Assembly: GCA_028712375.1 (NCBI GenBank)
Contig: JAQTQG010000007.1
Span: forward strand, 1 to 59,268
Direction: 5' to 3'
Length of the DNA: 59,268 nt
Origin: Candidatus Omnitrophota bacterium
GTDB lineage: Bacteria; Omnitrophota; Gorgyraeia; Gygaellales; Profunditerraquicolaceae
Positions 10,087 to 37,027 of the stretch are shown piece after piece (positions within the stretch are counted from its first letter, which is position 1; the number at the start of each line of letters is the position of its first letter). The notes under the pieces were generated by a model, which was not told the DNA's origin, searched no databases, and saw nothing but the letters and a program-made list of their open reading frames with translations. Made by a program: the position numbers and the translations under genes.

Positions 10087-10440
10087 AATCAAGCACCTTT
10101 AAGTTTTTATACACCGCAGTCCTTACGAGCGCCAGCGAGCAAGGGCAAGCACCTTGCTACTAACGCTACTACCGCAGTCCCCGCGAACGCTAGTGAGCGT
10201 GGACAAGCACCCTGTTAAATCAAGCACCTTTAAGTTTTTATGGTACGGAAAAACGCAAAGCGTTTTCCGTACCACTGCGAAAATTGTCTTTATTTGTATG
10301 CTCACAAACAAATAGTATTCTTCAAAAACAATTTTCTTGTCCACCGCAGTCCTTGCGAGCGCCAGCGAGCAAGGGCAAGCACCTTCCATCTAAACTTTAA
10401 CCCACCACAGTCCCCGCGAACGCTAGTGAGCGGGGACACT
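10087..10440. repeat. Array of Family A palindromes and other hairpins
   Basis: Four copies of ACCRCAGTCCYYRCGARCGCYAGYGAGCRNGGRCA, the first three followed by AGCACCYT; a 25-bp direct repeat AAATCAAGCACCTTTAAGTTTTTAT (twice); a 15-bp stem hairpin at 10241-10274. Confidence 0.85.
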
Positions 10441-11633
10441 TACAATCTCTTTAACCCCGGAAACAAAAAATTAATTAATGTAAACAACACCAAGCATACT
10501 GAACCACACAACAAAAGCGCCATTGACACTCCCCAGGTTTGTGCCAATACTCCGGAAATTAAATTACCAAACGGTACCACTCCGGCAAAAGTAATCATAA
10601 ACAAGCTCATTACCCTGCCGCGGAATTCATTAGGCACATTAATTTGCAGCAAGGTATTTACTAAAGCAACCGGAATAACGCTTGTGCCGCCGACAAAAAT
10701 CAGAGCAAAAACAGATAAAATATAATTTCTGGATAATGAAAAAACAATTAGTGAAACTGAAAATAAAAATACCGACCAGACCAAAAGCCTGCCTTTGGAT
10801 TTAAAATCTCCCAGCCGGGCTAAACCCAAAGCGCCTGCCAAAGCGCCTATACCGGCACTCGACATCAGCACCCCCAAACCTCTTACTCCCACACTGAGTA
10901 CATGGCTGGCGAAAACCGGCATCAATATGATATAAGAAACGCCAAAAAGGCTCATCGCTGCCACCACGCTTACTAATGCCAAAATAAGGCGGTTGTTAAA
11001 AACAAAAACTAACCCTTCTTTAATATCCGCCAGCGCAGAATTATTCTTACGTACTTTGTTTTTACCAAGCTTAATATAAAAGAGCGCGATAATTACCGCT
11101 AAAAAGCTAACCCCGTTTAAATAAAAACATCCACTCATCCCGATAACCGAAATTAATACACCGGCAATCGCCGGCCCGATAATCCGTGAAGAATTAAAAG
11201 CCACGGAATTTAAAGCAATGGCGTTAAAAATATGCTCCCGGCCCGCCAGTTCTACTACTATCGACTGCCTGGCCGGGGCATCAAAAGACATAATCACGCC
11301 ATTAAACAAGGCAATGAGCATGATCTGCGCTGCGGTAATAAATTTAAACTGGGTAAGCACTGCCAATAAAAATGCCAAAAGCATAAAAGCAGCCTGAGTA
11401 AAGATCAGTATATTTCTTTTATTTACCCTGTCCGCCAGGACGCCTCCGAATAAAGAAAGTATAAATATCGGAATTGAACCTAAGAAACCGACTACTCCTA
11501 AAAGAAAAGCCGAATTAGTCAGCTGAAATACCAACCAACTTTGCGCCACAGTCTGTACCCAAGTACCCACCAAAGATACAAACATCCCCAGCCAATATAC
11601 ACGGAAATATTTTATTTTTAATGAAGAAAACAT
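10440..11633 (-). CDS. MFS transporter (EntS-like)
   Basis: About 12 TM helices; FGGVLADRVNKR MFS motif. Confidence 0.88.
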   Translation of the reverse strand: MFSSLKIKYFRVYWLGMFVSLVGTWVQTVAQSWLVFQLTNSAFLLGVVGFLGSIPIFILSLFGGVLADRVNKRNILIFTQAAFMLLAFLLAVLTQFKFITAAQIMLIALFNGVIMSFDAPARQSIVVELAGREHIFNAIALNSVAFNSSRIIGPAIAGVLISVIGMSGCFYLNGVSFLAVIIALFYIKLGKNKVRKNNSALADIKEGLVFVFNNRLILALVSVVAAMSLFGVSYIILMPVFASHVLSVGVRGLGVLMSSAGIGALAGALGLARLGDFKSKGRLLVWSVFLFSVSLIVFSLSRNYILSVFALIFVGGTSVIPVALVNTLLQINVPNEFRGRVMSLFMITFAGVVPFGNLISGVLAQTWGVSMALLLCGSVCLVLFTLINFLFPGLKRL

Positions 11634-13905: not shown

Positions 13906-14529
13906 TTAATGTTCTTGCAGAAATTTCTGCATATCCTCGGGTAAAGGCGATTGAACCGCTACTGTCTTTGCAGTTTGAGGATGTTTAAATTCCAAATATT
14001 CAGCGTGCAAACAAACCCGCTTGGCCCGTAAGGCGAAATCTTTACGGAACGCAAATTTATCTTCCCCGACTAAAGGATGCTGGATATGTTTAAAATGAAT
14101 ACGTATCTGGTTGGTTCTGCCGGTGGCCGGAGAAATCTCGACCACACTATAGTTACTTTTTTCCTGGAGCACCTTGTATTTAGTAAGCGCGCTTTTTCCT
14201 TCAATCGCGGAGTTAATTACGCCCTGCGGCTTGCCTAATTTTCCGTGTGCAAAAGCAATATATCTTTTATTAATAAGCTTATTCCTGAAAGCCTCCGCCA
14301 TCTTTGTTTCGACCCCTCTGCTTTTGGCATAAATCAAAAGCCCGGAAGTCTGCCGGTCAAGGCGATGACAGGGATACAACTGGTATTTTGCTCCTTTAGA
14401 CTGGGCATCCTGATTCAAAATACTGGTTAAAGTACGCGATTCATTCTTAGGGGTAGGAACAGTTAATAACCCTGCGGGTTTATTAACTACTAACAGCCAA
14501 TCATCTTCAAAGACAATCGGAATATTCAT
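13906..14529 (-). CDS. RluA/RluD-family pseudouridine synthase
   Basis: CHRLDRQTSGLLIYAK catalytic motif. Confidence 0.93.
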   Translation of the reverse strand: MNIPIVFEDDWLLVVNKPAGLLTVPTPKNESRTLTSILNQDAQSKGAKYQLYPCHRLDRQTSGLLIYAKSRGVETKMAEAFRNKLINKRYIAFAHGKLGKPQGVINSAIEGKSALTKYKVLQEKSNYSVVEISPATGRTNQIRIHFKHIQHPLVGEDKFAFRKDFALRAKRVCLHAEYLEFKHPQTAKTVAVQSPLPEDMQKFLQEH

Positions 14530-14605
14530 CCCGCACCTTATTTTTTATTGAATTTATTCAGCCGCATGACTTTAATAATTAGATAACTAGAAAGCGCGGG
14601 GTTCA
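14530..14605 (-). repeat. Family C element, copy 1
   Basis: CCCGCACCTT...AAGCGCGGGG ends; interior ATGACTTTAATAATTAGATAACTAGAA shared with copy 2; abuts the ATG at 14529. Confidence 0.75.
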
Positions 14606-15523
14606 TTAAATAATTTCAAGCATCCGGTCGATAGCCAGGCGCGCTTTTATCCTGATCTGGTCGGAAACCCGCACTTCATCCTTAAGCTCTTCTAAAGCCC
14701 AAAGCACTTTCTCCTGCGTTGTGCGTTTCATATTCGGGCATACCGCGCGTTCACTGGCCGAATAAAACTCCTTATCCGGATTATCCTGTTTAAGCCGGTA
14801 AAGCAAGCCGGATTCCGTACCAATGATAAACTCTTTTGCGGGATCATCTTTAACATATTTGGCCATCTGGCTGGTGGAAAGAACAACATCGGCTAAAGAC
14901 ACTACTGCTGCCAAACATTCCGGATGAACCATCACCTTGGCCCGAGGATGGAATTTCTTCTCCCGTTTTAAATCTTCAGGTAATATTTTCACATGCGTGG
15001 GGCAGAACCCATGCCAGGAAATTAATTTTCTGCCGCTTTTTTTAGAAACATAATCCGCCAGATATTTATCCGGAATAAAAATTATTTCTTTTTTATCTTT
15101 TAGCGCATTGATTACCGCTACAGCATTAGTCGAAGTACAACAATAATCCAGCTCAGCCTTAACCGCCGCCGAAGTGTTTACATACCCCACCGCTACTGCC
15201 CCGGGATGTTCTGCTTTAAGCTTCCTTAAATCCTGTGCACTCATCATGCTGGCCATGGGACAGCCGGCAGACACATCCGGCATAATTACCATCTTATCCG
15301 GAGAAAGAATGGAAGCGGTCTCCGCCATAAAATAAACCCCGCAAAAAACAATAACCCCGGCTTCAGTCTTAGCGGCAATCCGGGAAAGTTCCAGGGAATC
15401 CCCGCGGAAATCCGCAATATCCTGAACTTCCGGCAGCTGATAATTATGCGCCAGAATAATGGCGTTATGTTTTTTCTTAAGCTCCTTGATTTTAGTGATT
15501 ATTTTTTTATCTTCTTTGATCAT
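14606..15523 (-). CDS. nadA: Quinolinate synthase
   Basis: AIILAHNYQLPEVQDIADFRGDSLELS and CPNMKRTT. Confidence 0.96.
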   Translation of the reverse strand: MIKEDKKIITKIKELKKKHNAIILAHNYQLPEVQDIADFRGDSLELSRIAAKTEAGVIVFCGVYFMAETASILSPDKMVIMPDVSAGCPMASMMSAQDLRKLKAEHPGAVAVGYVNTSAAVKAELDYCCTSTNAVAVINALKDKKEIIFIPDKYLADYVSKKSGRKLISWHGFCPTHVKILPEDLKREKKFHPRAKVMVHPECLAAVVSLADVVLSTSQMAKYVKDDPAKEFIIGTESGLLYRLKQDNPDKEFYSASERAVCPNMKRTTQEKVLWALEELKDEVRVSDQIRIKARLAIDRMLEII

Positions 15524-19322: not shown

Positions 19323-20279
19323 TTATCGGCAAGCTATTACATCGCCGCTGGAAACTTTTTGGATTAATCCGGAATCTTTGCGGATAAGCAGGCAGCCATC
19401 CTGGTCAATATCCGTTGCCTGCCCCTCAATATGCTTATTCTGATAATAAACCTTAACCCGGGTGCCCAGAGTAAGGGCAAAATTACGCCATTTATGGATA
19501 ATCTCTTGCGCCCCCCTGTCTTCCAGGAGAAAATAATTGCTTTCGATTTTACGTAAAATTTCCTGCAGCAGGGATACCCGGTTTATCCAGTCGCCATGCT
19601 CTGCCTTTAAGGAAGTAGCCTGGGGAAGTAAAGATGATTTATCGTTGTTCACATTCAAGCCGATTCCGATTACCACAAAATTTACTTTGTCCACCTCGGC
19701 ATTCATCTCGGTTAAAATACCGGCAACTTTTTTATGATGAATAAATATATCATTGGGCCATTTTATCTGCACATCCAGGCCGGTCACTTCTTTTACCGCC
19801 TCACAAATACTTACCGCGCTCATTAAAGTTAATACCGGACAAGCGGCAGGCGAAATCCGCGGCCTAAGGATTAAAGACAGATAGATGCCTTTATATTTAG
19901 GCGATAACCAACTCCTGCCTAATCTGCCGCGCCCCTTAACTTGGGACTCCGCTAACACTAAAGTACCGCTCTGGGCAGCATTCATCCCCAACTGCATAGC
20001 TGAATCCATCGTCGAAGGCAAATAATCGAAATAATGAATATTTTTCCCGATAAATTTTGTGTGCAGGTTACGCAAAACTTCGAATGCAAAAAGGCGGTCC
20101 GGGCAGGATTCCAGCCGGTAACCTAAATGCGGAACAGCAATAATCTCATAGCCTAAATCTTTCAGTTCCTGAATATGCTTCCATAAACCCTGGCGGCTAA
20201 TCCCCAAATGTTTGCTGATCTGGTCTCCGGAAAGATAGTCGTGCTTTTTATTTAAATACTCCAGTATTCTCTCTTTCAT
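19323..20279 (-). CDS. birA: Bifunctional biotin ligase / biotin operon repressor
   Basis: N-terminal HTH (ISKHLGISRQGLWKHIQELKDLGYEI); GRGRLGRSWLSP and KWPND motifs. Confidence 0.95.
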   Translation of the reverse strand: MKERILEYLNKKHDYLSGDQISKHLGISRQGLWKHIQELKDLGYEIIAVPHLGYRLESCPDRLFAFEVLRNLHTKFIGKNIHYFDYLPSTMDSAMQLGMNAAQSGTLVLAESQVKGRGRLGRSWLSPKYKGIYLSLILRPRISPAACPVLTLMSAVSICEAVKEVTGLDVQIKWPNDIFIHHKKVAGILTEMNAEVDKVNFVVIGIGLNVNNDKSSLLPQATSLKAEHGDWINRVSLLQEILRKIESNYFLLEDRGAQEIIHKWRNFALTLGTRVKVYYQNKHIEGQATDIDQDGCLLIRKDSGLIQKVSSGDVIACR

Positions 20280-20352
20280 CGCGCACCTTCTATTTTATTT
20301 AATTCATTAGACCAAATGACTTTAATATTAGAATAACTAGAAGGTGCGGGAT
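20280..20352 (-). repeat. Family C element, copy 2
   Basis: CGCGCACCTTCT...AGAAGGTGCGGG ends; fills the gap from the upstream stop codon to the birA ATG. Confidence 0.8.
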
Positions 20353-21393
20353 TCATCTTTTCTTTAAATACTCCGCAAACTTGCCCCAAAAAGGATCAAC
20401 CTTGGGATGCTTAAGTTCATACCTTTTTCCCTTATTTAGAACATACATTCCTTCCGACTGCGCCGTAACTTCACCGGCAATGCTGGCAGGAATCCCCGCT
20501 TTTTCCAAAGCCTCAACAATAAACCTGGCTTTTTGCTTATCCGCCGTAGCCAATAAAGTCCCTTCGCTGATAGATTTATAAGGATCAATATCGAAACATT
20601 CACAGGTCAATTTAACCTCTTCCTGTATAATTATCTTGCTTAAGTCAATGCGCATGCCGACATGGCTGTGTTGCGCAATCTCAAAAAGCCCGCCCCAGAC
20701 CCCGCATTCCGTAGCATCATGCATCGCAGTTACTCCGCCGATAGATGCCGCAATCGCGGCGTCCTTAACCGTGGACATTTGATAAAAAACATTCTGCGCG
20801 CGTTTAAGAAAAGATTTTCCGTGCTTTGCTTCCAAGAATTCCGGAAAATAAGCGCTCATCAATCCTGTAGTTTCAATCGCCGGCCCCTTAGAAACAATAA
20901 TAACATCCCCGGCTTTAGCCCGGGGGATAACTAATTTTCTCTTTGGCCCTAAACCAAACATCGTAGCTCCGCCAACCATCGGATAATTGCATCCGGCATA
21001 TCGGGCAGTGTGCCCGGTAACCACGCTGATTTTGAGCTTCCGGCATTCTTGATGCACCGCATCCCACATCTTCACTAATTCCGGCTCAGTCATCTCCGGA
21101 GGAAGATTTAAATCTATCGCCAAATATTGCGGGGCGATACCGCTTACCGCAACATCGCTGGCAATAATATGCACGGCAAACCAGGCAGCTTTTTCCAACC
21201 CCAATTCTCTGGCAATAAAAAAAGGGTCACAGGACAAAACCATTACCTTTGCCCCCAAATCCACTACTCCGAAATCTACTCCGTTTTGCGGGCCCACAAT
21301 AATGGCGTTATCCGGCTTGCCTAATTTACGATAAATATGCCGATTAAAAAAATCCGGATGGATTTTTCCCAGAGGAGGTAAGCTATTTTTCAT
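20353..21393 (-). CDS. AIR synthase-related (HypE/ThiL-like) protein
   Basis: PurM-like fold features: MVLSCDPFF...AWFAVHIIASDVAVSG...GGVTAMHDATECGVWGG; start overlaps the NifS-like stop. Confidence 0.8.
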   Translation of the reverse strand: MKNSLPPLGKIHPDFFNRHIYRKLGKPDNAIIVGPQNGVDFGVVDLGAKVMVLSCDPFFIARELGLEKAAWFAVHIIASDVAVSGIAPQYLAIDLNLPPEMTEPELVKMWDAVHQECRKLKISVVTGHTARYAGCNYPMVGGATMFGLGPKRKLVIPRAKAGDVIIVSKGPAIETTGLMSAYFPEFLEAKHGKSFLKRAQNVFYQMSTVKDAAIAASIGGVTAMHDATECGVWGGLFEIAQHSHVGMRIDLSKIIIQEEVKLTCECFDIDPYKSISEGTLLATADKQKARFIVEALEKAGIPASIAGEVTAQSEGMYVLNKGKRYELKHPKVDPFWGKFAEYLKKR

Positions 21394-22543
21394 AAAGAGG
21401 AGACATCGCGCGTAATTTTTGAACAACCGGTGGTAATTTTTCTAAAAGATAATCTATGTCGGACTCTTTGGTCCAACGTCCCAGCGTAATCCTAAGCGAC
21501 CCATGCGCTGTTTCATGATCTAAACCAATCGCCAATAAAACATGCGAAGGCTCAAGAGAGCTGGAGGTACAAGCTGAACCGGTAGAACAGGCAATCCCCA
21601 GCAAATCCAGGCTCAACAGCATAGATTCGCCTTCAATATATTTAATCGAAAAATTTACACTGTTGGGCAGCCTTTGCGTAGGATGGCCATTAAGCCTCAC
21701 CTCAGGAATTCTGGCGGGAATCTCTTTAATCAATCTGTCCCGCAAACCGCTCTGAAATTTTATCTCATCTTCCATTTTATTCTGACAAAGTTCAATAGCT
21801 TTGGCTAACCCTACAATCCCGGCGATATTATGTGTAGAGGCACGCCTGCCTCTTTCCTGATCTCCACCGCGCATAAATGTTTCAAGCCGCGTACCTTTTC
21901 TAACATACAAAGCTCCCACCCCTTTCGGGCCGTAAAATTTATGTGCCGAAAGCGACAAAAGATCAACATTAAGTTTATCCACATGAATCGGGATATGCCC
22001 TATAGTCTGCACGGCATCAGTATGAAAATAAACCCCCCTATCTTTAGCCAACTTACCTAATTGCGTAATCGGCTGAAGTGTCCCGATTTCATTATTCGCA
22101 TGCATAATACTAACCAAAATAGTTTTATCAGTAATTGCTTTTTTTAAATCATCCGGTGAAACTAAACCATCTTTATCCACCTTCAGATAAGTAACTTTAA
22201 AACCCTTTTTTTCCAAAAATTTAGCCGGCTCGCTGATTGCGTGATGTTCAATGGCAGAGGTAATAATATGATTGCCTTTTTTTTCTAAAGCATAAGCAGT
22301 ACCCAAAAGCGCGTAATTGTCTGACTCTGTTCCTCCGGAAGTAAACACAATTTCCTCTGGTTTTGCGCCGATAAAATCCGCCAAAGCCTGACGGCTGTCC
22401 TCCAGGGCTTTCTTGGCCTCCTGGCCGTAAGCATGCAGGCTTGAAGCATTACCGAATTTGTCGAAAAAATACGGTTCCATCGCCGCAACAACTTCCGGAT
22501 CCGCGGGGGTGGTCGCCGCATAATCTAAATATACCTTTTTCAT
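21383..22543 (-). CDS. Cysteine desulfurase (NifS/IscS family)
   Basis: YLDYAATTPADPEV, LSAHKFYGPKGVGALYVRKG, CSTGSACTS. Confidence 0.96.
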   Translation of the reverse strand: MKKVYLDYAATTPADPEVVAAMEPYFFDKFGNASSLHAYGQEAKKALEDSRQALADFIGAKPEEIVFTSGGTESDNYALLGTAYALEKKGNHIITSAIEHHAISEPAKFLEKKGFKVTYLKVDKDGLVSPDDLKKAITDKTILVSIMHANNEIGTLQPITQLGKLAKDRGVYFHTDAVQTIGHIPIHVDKLNVDLLSLSAHKFYGPKGVGALYVRKGTRLETFMRGGDQERGRRASTHNIAGIVGLAKAIELCQNKMEDEIKFQSGLRDRLIKEIPARIPEVRLNGHPTQRLPNSVNFSIKYIEGESMLLSLDLLGIACSTGSACTSSSLEPSHVLLAIGLDHETAHGSLRITLGRWTKESDIDYLLEKLPPVVQKLRAMSPLYEK

Positions 22544-22615
22544 CCCGCACCTTCTCCTTATCCTTTTATTCTAATCCCTGCGCCTTTTTGTTTAAATAAA
22601 AGAAGGTGCGGGATT
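22544..22615 (-). repeat. Family C element, copy 3
   Basis: CCCGCACCTTCT...AGAAGGTGCGGG ends with a diverged interior; contains the larE-like stop codon. Confidence 0.75.
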
Positions 22616-23422
22616 CGCCTTTCCAATTACCTCGTTTAAACTGCCAGTACGGTACCCTTCTAAATCTACAGTAACATAGCTGTATCCGAGCCCTTTTAAT
22701 TTTTTCACTATTTCTTTACGCTGCTTCATCAACTTACTAATTTCATTTTCATCTACTTCAATCCGGCAAAGCCCGTCATAATGCCGCAAACGTACCTGCT
22801 GAAAGCCCAAGCGGTTTAAATATGCTTCCGCCCGGTCAATACGTTTAAGCAAACCAGCCGTAATCTTAACACCGTAAGGAATACGCGAAGCTAAACAGGC
22901 AAGACTCGGTTTATTCCAGCTGGAAAGGCCCATTTTTTTACTTAACAAGCGGATATCTTCTTTGTTAAAACCTGCCTGAATCAAAGGTGATTTTATTTTA
23001 AGCTGGCGCTTAGCAATATTGCCCGGGCGATAATCTTTCCGGTCTGTAAGGCTGCTGGCTTCTAAAATAAAATCCAGCTTATTCTGCTTGGCTATAATGA
23101 TTAATTTTGAAAAAAGCTCCTGCTTACAGAAATAACAACGGGTCACCGGATTATCCGTAAATTTTTTATTGCCCAGCTCATTGGTCCGGATAATTTTAAA
23201 TCTTGAACCGATTTGTTTAGCCAGTATTTTTGCTTTAGCCAGCTCTCCCTTGGGATAAGCGGCCGAAACCGCGGTAACGGCCATAACCTTGCCCGGAGGC
23301 AATACCAGCGCACAGATCTTAAGTAAAAAAGCGCTATCCTGCCCGCCGGAAAACGCAACTAACACCGATCGGTAGGACAGAATTATACGCTTAAGTAATT
23401 CCAGCTTATCCTGCAGTTCCAT
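22592..23422 (-). CDS. LarE-like ATP-dependent sacrificial sulfur transferase
   Basis: AFSGGQDSAFLLK PP-loop; RCYFCKQELFSKL; ACLASRIPYG motifs. Confidence 0.88.
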   Translation of the reverse strand: MELQDKLELLKRIILSYRSVLVAFSGGQDSAFLLKICALVLPPGKVMAVTAVSAAYPKGELAKAKILAKQIGSRFKIIRTNELGNKKFTDNPVTRCYFCKQELFSKLIIIAKQNKLDFILEASSLTDRKDYRPGNIAKRQLKIKSPLIQAGFNKEDIRLLSKKMGLSSWNKPSLACLASRIPYGVKITAGLLKRIDRAEAYLNRLGFQQVRLRHYDGLCRIEVDENEISKLMKQRKEIVKKLKGLGYSYVTVDLEGYRTGSLNEVIGKANPAPSFI

Positions 23423-23657: not shown

Positions 23658-23670
23658 TTTTTCTCCTTGT

Positions 23671-23815
23671 CTACCTAGACAACACCAACGCAATACCAAT
23701 CAGCGTTGGGTGTCTGGTCTGCCTAGACAACACCAACGCAATATTCGCCACATGGCGAACACTGGCCCAATTCCAATCTGGGCCAGGTACCAATCAGCGC
23801 GGGGTGCCAGGCGGT
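23671..23815. repeat. Family B palindrome cluster with a nested copy
   Basis: CCAACGC-AATACCAATCA-GCGTTGG; a second copy split in its loop by GTTCGCC-ACAT-GGCGAAC and CTGGCCC-AATTCCAATCT-GGGCCAG. Confidence 0.8.
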
Positions 23816-35733: not shown

Positions 35734-36855
35734 TTATGCCCGTAACTCCTGATCAAAATTATCCGGTTTTAACATTAAAATTAGCGGCTTAAGTAAAAAA
35801 TTTAAGATTGTATTCCGGTGTTTCAGATAAACAAACAGCGTAACCAACTTTCCTCCCAACCTGATTTTAGGCTCATAATCTGTCTGGCCAGGATAATAAT
35901 AGCTTAAAGAATGGTCTATGCACCATTGGATATTATTAACCCAGCTGATAAAATATAAATTATACCGCCTGGATACATCATAGTCGAAACCGATAAATTT
36001 ATCAATGAACAAATTATCATAAATAAAACAAAGATTAAATGCCGCTAACTTATTATCTATATAGTAAAGAAAGAAACGCACGTGGGGGGATAAATCCTGC
36101 GCAATCTGCAGAAAGAACTTTTTGGTTAGCCTCTCAAATTTAGTCGAACCGCCGCGATAAGCGTTTTCATACAAGTTCATTACCTGATCAATCTGCGGCA
36201 AAACATCCTGAACTACTTTCACTTCAATATTGCCCAGCATATAAGCTTGTTTTATCTTGCGGTTTAAATTTTTACGCGTAGATGCGCTCAGGCTGGCAAA
36301 GTACTCCGCGAGAGATTTAAAATTTAGCTCTACTACTACTGTGGGAAAACTTTTTGCCCGGGAAAACCCCTTTTTCAACAAAAGATCCAAAAACGGCTGG
36401 CTGGATTCAGGAAAATCCTTAAAAATAATCAAAGGGGCTTTAATTTTTAGGGCCAGATTTTTTAATCCCGAATTCAAAACAGAAATCAGTTTGGCTTTAT
36501 CCGGATAACTTGGGCGGATTCCCAATACCCCAAACTCTGAAAAAGGAGACCCGCAGAATAATGTCCTGGCAACTAGAAAACGCGGATAAATTTTGCGTAT
36601 CCACCGGATAACTCCCGTCAGCTTGCCTTCTACGGCTATATCCAAATTAAAATCCTTGCTAAACAACGGAGCAATGAGCACAATTTCATCATCAGAATAA
36701 ATAACCAGATAGAAAAAAGAAAACTCATAAAGCTCGGAATCGCCCAGGGCTTTATAAAACGCGAAACTTTCCGGAATATTTCCAAAAATATCATCCCAGT
36801 CTTTTTTGGCAATCCGGTCAATGCTATCATATATTTTATATGTAATTTCAGGCAT
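35734..36855 (-). CDS. GNAT/FemAB-like N-acyltransferase (BioF2-like)
   Basis: SASTRKNLNRKIKQA...LYENAYRGGSTKFERLTKKFF...YYPGQTDYEPKIRLGGK. Confidence 0.7.
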   Translation of the reverse strand: MPEITYKIYDSIDRIAKKDWDDIFGNIPESFAFYKALGDSELYEFSFFYLVIYSDDEIVLIAPLFSKDFNLDIAVEGKLTGVIRWIRKIYPRFLVARTLFCGSPFSEFGVLGIRPSYPDKAKLISVLNSGLKNLALKIKAPLIIFKDFPESSQPFLDLLLKKGFSRAKSFPTVVVELNFKSLAEYFASLSASTRKNLNRKIKQAYMLGNIEVKVVQDVLPQIDQVMNLYENAYRGGSTKFERLTKKFFLQIAQDLSPHVRFFLYYIDNKLAAFNLCFIYDNLFIDKFIGFDYDVSRRYNLYFISWVNNIQWCIDHSLSYYYPGQTDYEPKIRLGGKLVTLFVYLKHRNTILNFLLKPLILMLKPDNFDQELRA

Positions 36856-37000
36856 ATGCTAAAATAATCAAGGCACTTTTAAAGCCAAAAGAGTGGTTTG
36901 GCCTCCAATAAGCCAAAGCCACAAGCTAGACAAGCAGTGGTTTGCTCTCCAATAAGCAAAGCCACAGAGAGTTCCCTTGAATTTTGGCTTATTTTAGCAT
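36856..37000. repeat. 145-bp composite palindrome with two Family B hairpins
   Basis: Outer arms ATGCTAAAATAA / TTATTTTAGCAT; inner hairpins at 36893-36922 and 36937-36965 share loop CTCCAATAA. Confidence 0.8.
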
Positions 37001-37027
37001 AAAATGATTATATAAATAATAATAAAT

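Follow-up and report, generated by a model that had tools for sequence, protein, structure and literature searches.

The window analysed here is a 59,268-nt contig from a Candidatus Omnitrophota genome of 1.65 Mb (95% complete). It carries three intergenic inverted-repeat elements, each meeting the start of a minus-strand gene. The downstream genes encode an RluD-like pseudouridine synthase, BirA and a NifS-like class-V aminotransferase. Five of the six flanking proteins were identified by Pfam, and the LarE-like one, without a Pfam match, was assigned by reading its sequence. The initial annotation had recognized these three elements with their arms, all of which are present, and had placed them at 14530-14605, 20280-20352 and 22544-22615; with the end bases that pair included, their limits and flanks are as follows.

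14525-14528, minus strand: downstream target duplication of copy 1, TGAA, bases 2-5 of the RluD-like gene (from the sequence and the empty sites of relatives)
14529-14601, minus strand: copy 1, a miniature at the junction of nadA and the RluD-like gene, CCCCGCGCTTTCT...ATAAGGTGCGGGA; the empty site in relatives is TAATGAATATTCC
14538-14606, minus strand: mini-ORF of copy 1, decayed, MNPALSSYLIIKVMRLNKFNKK and stop, with the stop four codons early (frame analysis)
14602-14605, minus strand: upstream target duplication of copy 1, TGAA (from the sequence and the empty sites of relatives)
20275-20278, minus strand: downstream target duplication of copy 2, TGAA, bases 2-5 of birA (from the sequence)
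20276-20356, minus strand: mini-ORF of copy 2, intact, MNPAPSSYSNIKVIWSNELNKIEGAR and stop (frame analysis)
20279-20351, minus strand: copy 2, a miniature at the junction of a SelD/HypE-like (AIR synthase-related) gene and birA, 77.9 bits with the covariance model; the empty site in G023 is AAAAATGAAGG
20352-20355, minus strand: upstream target duplication of copy 2, TGAA, containing the TGA stop of the SelD/HypE-like gene (from the sequence)
22539-22542, minus strand: downstream target duplication of copy 3, TGAA, bases 2-5 of the NifS-like gene (from the sequence)
22543-22613, minus strand: copy 3, a miniature at the junction of a LarE-like PP-loop gene and the NifS-like gene, 66.9 bits, with empty and filled sites in 30 relatives
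22614-22617, minus strand: upstream duplication of copy 3, mutated to CGAA (from the sequence and relatives)

Copy 2 is the best preserved of the three: the ATG of its mini-ORF overlaps the upstream TGA, and its own TGA overlaps the ATG of birA. Copies 1 and 2 have a common interior, as previously annotated (79% identity over 82 nt). In copy 3 the mini-ORF has lost its initiating ATG, and the LarE-like gene upstream has lost its stop, so that its ORF now ends within the element (...NPAPSFI and stop). The window also holds repeats of other kinds: a different palindromic element of 147 nt at 36855-37001 (TATGCTAAAATAA...TTATTTTAGCATA) that overlaps the start of a minus-strand 373-codon ORF; four REP-like repeats of ~60 nt with GCGAGCGCCAGCGAGC-type palindromes at 10104-10454, separating an MFS-type transporter ORF from the neighbour downstream of it; and two 30-nt direct repeats, 93% identical and spaced by 48 nt, at 23666-23743 (CTTGTCTACCTAGACAACACCAACGCAATA).

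The elements are repeated throughout the genome. The arm AGAAGGTGCGGG occurs 30 times, against once for the reversed control, and a 14-mer search allowing up to 2 mismatches gives 93 matches against 5. A covariance model of the element without its flanks yields 99 matches, counting both strands, with copies down to E = 6e-22. In all, the genome has ~51 copies. Their placement at translation starts, which the initial annotation had singled out as unusual, holds genome-wide: of the 51 distinct loci examined, 46 run up to the start codon of an ORF no shorter than 36 codons, 43 of them ending exactly there and 3 within 1-2 nt, and four of the remaining five are stacked directly beside another copy. 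By rough ORF calling, the window has 16 RTGAR gene starts, while its non-coding DNA contains 29 further TGAA and 270 further TNAA sites, so insertion at random among non-coding targets would seldom produce such a pattern. Among 167 elements in the pooled loci, 127 adjoin an ORF with 40 or more codons; of the 40 that do not, several lie ahead of the 37-codon rpmJ or of an ORF cut by the end of the locus. Head-to-tail stacks also occur (L036:2197-2363, L101:4208-4339, L062:2429-2670 and L058:1667-1810); in these, the target duplicated by an earlier insertion is re-used by later copies.

Among 58 related genomes, 33 carry the element, with 0 to ~80 matches per genome (both strands counted), and the distribution of the family across the phylum Omnitrophota is patchy. 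A scan of 84,980 species genomes for exact arms returned 91 stretches, nearly all in Omnitrophota MAGs and three in Planctomycetes/Phycisphaerae MAGs; ~85% of these copies likewise end at a start codon. The copies in contigs labelled Phycisphaerae/Planctomycetes (L068, L069 and L070, the interior of L069 being in reversed orientation) reflect either transfer or mis-binned contigs.

Read in gene direction, the insertions have the layout ..ATGAA, YCCCGCACCTTCT ... AGAAGGTGCGGGR, TGAA... The 4-bp flanks are identical in 95 of 127 copies (TGAA/TGAA 80, TGAG/TGAG 9, TGGA/TGGA 3, TGCG/TGCG 2 and TGAT/TGAT 1), and copies away from starts have TTAA/TTAA, TCAA/TCAA or TAAA/TAAA. Left and right tetranucleotides thus vary together, which rules out an IS200/IS605 or RAYT mechanism in which the right-hand TGAA would be the element's own. 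The targets are dozens of unrelated sites with little beyond RTGAA in common. Comparison of orthologous junctions in relatives reveals empty sites at all three window positions, and typically the upstream stop and the downstream start overlap there as ATGA or TAATG. The nifS junction is empty in ~20 relatives, where the upstream TGA overlaps the nifS ATG or lies within a few nucleotides of it (for example AATAAATGAAAAGG), and is filled in G013 with a perfect duplication (AACAAATGAA, CCCC...GGGG and TGAAAAAGG in succession). Empty sites are also clear at the RluD-like and birA junctions, for instance TCTGATGAATATTCC in G016, CCTAATGAATATTCC in G013 and that of G023 listed above. At the level of sequence, this demonstrates that the elements are mobile and duplicate their target.

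The arms form terminal inverted repeats of 13 nt in which 94% of cells are paired. The last base of the element (A or G), which follows AGAAGGTG-CGGG, is also the first base of the start codon. Because this base pairs with the opening base of the left arm and the two co-vary (left Y, right R: C:G 83, T:A 35 and mixed 35, of 153), we assign it to the element, which therefore donates the first base of the ATG or GTG. The RNAalifold consensus omits this end pair; counts that include it are T:A 9 and C:G 7. At the other arm positions there are 11 compensatory double changes against 3.1 expected, a figure that counts sequences and not events. The earlier description of each element as ending exactly at the ATG is hence right as to its meeting the start of the gene, and is amended in that the first base of the start codon is the element's own.

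Besides the miniatures, the family includes full-length copies of ~290-335 nt, bounded by the same arms (13-16-bp inverted repeats), in which the sole gene encodes a small GIY-YIG endonuclease. The copy in G011 (L208/L215) is intact: it measures 297 nt, has perfect 16-bp arms, and its ORF (MNPAPS..KKEGAG and stop; in full MNPAPSLNSIMYHAYLLKSKKNDTFYIGYTNNIERRLKDHSSGIVEYAGKYVPWEIVYYESSISLVDANQRERSLKSFGRAYSGLKLRIKNSLNKKEGAG) begins at the left ATGAA and ends in a TGA that overlaps the next GTG. Another copy (L117:6431-6724, 294 nt) lies at the start of a purN-like ORF within a TGAA duplication, with one frameshift in the GIY-YIG frame. A protein search of the phylum found the gene in 7 of 334 genomes at E <= 1e-22. 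All seven are arm-flanked, including G011, G241, G223, G247 and G037, and the arms in G010 and G012 are degenerate; beyond these seven there is the frameshifted copy of G015. Several full-length copies are thus frameshifted or degenerate. The arms of the G223 copy are altered on both sides and still complementary; this copy and that of G247 have no clear matching 4-bp duplication, and the former is not at a start codon. The proteins score above the cut-off for Pfam GIY-YIG (PF01541; E = 3e-12 to 8e-18), and the catalytic residues Arg36 and Glu60 are invariant in 9 members. The window's own genome yielded no GIY-YIG gene with these arms. An arm-bounded transposase gene (DDE or HUH) was found neither in the loci around ~170 copies nor in an arm map of three rich genomes. 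What looked like long elements at L037 (808 nt) and L102 (2240 nt) were discarded, each being a pair of separate insertions. An IS1380/piggyBac-like parent, suggested by the C-rich ends and TTAA targets, was set aside too, as we found no arm-bounded element with such a gene in those loci or that map.

The miniatures retain the MNPAPS and Y-S...N-K-K-E-G-A-G of the 297-nt G011 element, and the 71-nt type reads MNPAPSKYSTIKAIGFNKLNKKEGAG and stop, that is, the first six and roughly the last twenty codons of the long frame. Judged by these shared ends, the miniatures are internally deleted forms of the full-length GIY-YIG element. Although the arms are palindromic, the interior follows the gene direction in ~81 of 83 copies, an orientation that is fixed because the elements derive from a GIY-YIG gene frame read in that direction. 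The two outcomes named in the initial annotation as refuting it, a majority of copies away from starts or an unbiased orientation, are both contradicted by these counts and by the positions given above. Of 107 start-codon copies, 54 keep a frame open from the left NTG to the overlapping TGA, where shuffled interiors would give 10.7, and about half of the miniatures still read MNPAPS...KEGAG up to the stop; element length is 2 mod 3 in 74 of the 107; about half of the miniatures, window copy 1 included, have no open frame. The peptide itself is under little constraint (pN/pS 0.64), a value which, like the entropies of codon positions one to three (1.17, 1.09 and 1.24 bits), gives little support to its being a functional product. 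The frame seems more important than the peptide, or may partly be a relic of shared descent.

RNA folding places the Shine-Dalgarno and the start base within a stem of -21 to -33 kcal/mol, with hairpin z-scores of -2.7 to -6.2. As a consequence, initiation at the downstream gene is predicted to depend on ribosomes arriving through the mini-ORF. The initial annotation had proposed that the elements supply a ribosome-binding site. Indeed, the terminal Shine-Dalgarno does lie 4 nt from the start, and it is locked in this hairpin; the proposal is partly supported, being right in sequence and incomplete in mechanism. The annotation was also right to treat the elements as insertions. It did not include the 4-bp target duplication, the split and rebuilt start codon, the translatable mini-ORF or the descent from a GIY-YIG nuclease gene.

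Sister families with different arms occupy the same kind of site. A search for TGAAYCCC-N42..72-GGGRTGAA, which gave zero control matches in 58 genomes, also retrieves the CCCCGCCCTTCC and CCCCGTTAGAA families and variants with arms altered on both sides (GTTCAAA, GTTCGAA and GTTACAAA). Family W of UBA1562, with CCCCGCCCTTCC arms, includes a full-length GIY-YIG copy with TGAA duplications (L228; MNPALP..KKGRAG and stop). GIY-YIG frames also lie beside CCCCGTTAGAGAT arms in G026 (on contigs that break within the element) and, in L240, between CCCCACACCCAGCA arms, which suggests that these arm families likewise encode GIY-YIG proteins. The orthologous nifS start codon carries a CCAGCCCTTCT element in G026 and a CCTTCGAC palindrome in G015. 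In G026, a sister palindrome family (CCCAGCCCTTCT/AGAAGGGCTGGG) sits at the orthologous birA and nifS start codons (L154, about 520-580; L242). The same genome has 13 GIY-YIG matches, several of them beside CCCCGTTAGAGAT or CCCCACACCCAGCA arms (L233, L235, L236, L238 and L240), with TTTA/TAAA-like flanks and not at start codons. In G014, a second palindrome (GGGGACGGTTCT...AGAACCGTCCCC) is nested in some elements (L197:2238-2387, L198:1996-2173 and L244).

The explanation we favour, with a probability of roughly three in four, is that of a GIY-YIG-linked transposable mini-cistron with MITE-like derivatives, which keeps operons translatable by adding a cistron coupled through its stop and start. 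The ~73-bp elements would be non-autonomous copies of the ~290-335-nt GIY-YIG element. Insertion takes place at a 4-bp target, with a strong preference for the TGAA of an RTGAA start codon, and duplicates it. The native leader, once displaced, could no longer act on the downstream start; since the right end reads ...AGAAGGTGCGGG(A/G), the inserted element restores RTGAA as a start codon with a Shine-Dalgarno 4 nt upstream. On the other side, the upstream TGAA preserves the TGA stop of the preceding gene. In an intact body the frame starts at the left ATG and closes with a TGA that overlaps the downstream RTG, so that insertion would add a coupled cistron and not break the operon. The hairpin would seal the Shine-Dalgarno in the mRNA until ribosomes translating the mini-ORF melt it, which would then reinitiate at the start that its stop overlaps. 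We infer that this coupling is the reason insertions survive. The GIY-YIG protein, whose catalysis is putative, would be the mobility enzyme, nicking RTGAA-like sites and mobilizing the element ends. Known GIY-YIG homing enzymes leave short 3′ overhangs, and the 4-bp duplication is not explained by these alone, which counts against the model, as do the lack of a parent in the window's own genome, the rarity of full-length copies, several of them damaged, the absence of a clear matching duplication in G223 and G247, and the half of the miniatures that have no open frame.

The elements could instead be ordinary MITEs of a DDE transposase, with the GIY-YIG gene a passenger or homing gene in one copy and the start position the outcome of purifying selection in gene-dense operons. 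A 4-bp duplication together with 13-16-bp inverted repeats is indeed the classical signature of DDE transposons, and the TTAA, TCAA and TAAA insertions show that the target is not strictly the start codon. We nevertheless consider this unlikely, given that no longer arm-bounded transposase element appeared in the fetched loci or the three-genome arm map, that a single passenger event does not explain GIY-YIG genes inside the arms of at least two families with different arms, and that selection alone should leave more copies at non-start intergenic TNAA/TGAA sites. A cis-regulatory RNA hairpin, a translational switch kept or spread for regulating downstream genes and only incidentally mobile, would account for the stable stem holding the Shine-Dalgarno, for the fixed orientation and for the excess of compensatory arm changes. 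This is very improbable: orthologous genes of close relatives do without the element, the downstream genes are functionally mixed (nifS, birA, rluD-like, rpmJ, nrdR and purN), interiors diverge freely, and G026 and G015 carry unrelated palindromes at the same nifS site. The empty sites and the mixed downstream genes are our grounds for rejecting a pure RNA switch. As for chance hairpins or terminators beside genes, which have in their favour only that inverted repeats exist near genes, they are refuted by the genome-wide counts against reversed controls, the zero control matches in the 58 genomes, the empty sites and the duplications.

A transposable mini-cistron of this kind can be compared with several known systems. 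Penelope-like retroelements disperse using a GIY-YIG nuclease and encode a reverse transcriptase, which is absent from the ~300-nt element. REP/RAYT systems also disperse short palindromes between genes, with RAYT/IS200-type insertion occurring without target duplication, whereas here both flanks vary together. With bacterial MITEs (PMC10969869) our elements share small size, inverted repeats, a short target duplication, many diverged copies and derivation from a longer coding element by internal deletion; they differ in their parent, whose gene is for a GIY-YIG nuclease and no known transposase, and in that copies lie within the start codon, in one orientation, with a frame that can be translated. 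That review contains none of the terms 'start codon', 'ribosome' and 'GIY'. Rickettsia palindromic elements (PMC10969869) are likewise mobile palindromic repeats encoding a conserved peptide and keeping the reading frame open; by their description they are set apart, being ~150 bp long and often in-frame inside ORFs, where they produce fusions, whereas the present elements lie between cistrons as a separate overlapping mini-cistron. The free-standing GIY-YIG homing endonucleases SegA-G of phage T4 (PMC2988022) are also small genes between host genes that spread by their own nuclease. Their homing copies the gene between alleles, at a long specific site and by way of flanking homology; the elements described here instead have inverted repeats, a 4-bp duplication and deletion derivatives, and occur at dozens of unrelated sites. 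No single long specific site in cognate alleles is seen for them. In the literature that could be searched, which left out most subscription papers and all preprints, we found no GIY-YIG-encoding inverted-repeat elements and no bacterial start-codon MITEs. The anatomy is MITE-like; nothing within that literature corresponds to the parent without a recognized transposase, the start-codon target or the coupled mini-cistron. We give even odds to a new class of bacterial transposable element, in which a small GIY-YIG nuclease alone drives start-codon insertion with a 4-bp duplication, as a one-cistron element neutral to operon translation, with several families, whose arms differ from one another and are complementary within each, and miniatures across Omnitrophota.

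Typical transposons disrupt their targets. An element that restores the start codon and the Shine-Dalgarno, spares the upstream stop and passes ribosomes on through its mini-ORF can therefore enter the tightly packed operons of small genomes. To our knowledge, the nuclease fold of GIY-YIG proteins is not known as a stand-alone DNA transposase; were the GIY-YIG protein to prove the mobility enzyme, this would add such a fold and would explain the multicopy small GIY-YIG genes of uncultured bacteria. Furthermore, translation reinitiation could be studied on these elements as naturally occurring modules of stop-start coupling, for which related genomes provide both filled and empty sites.
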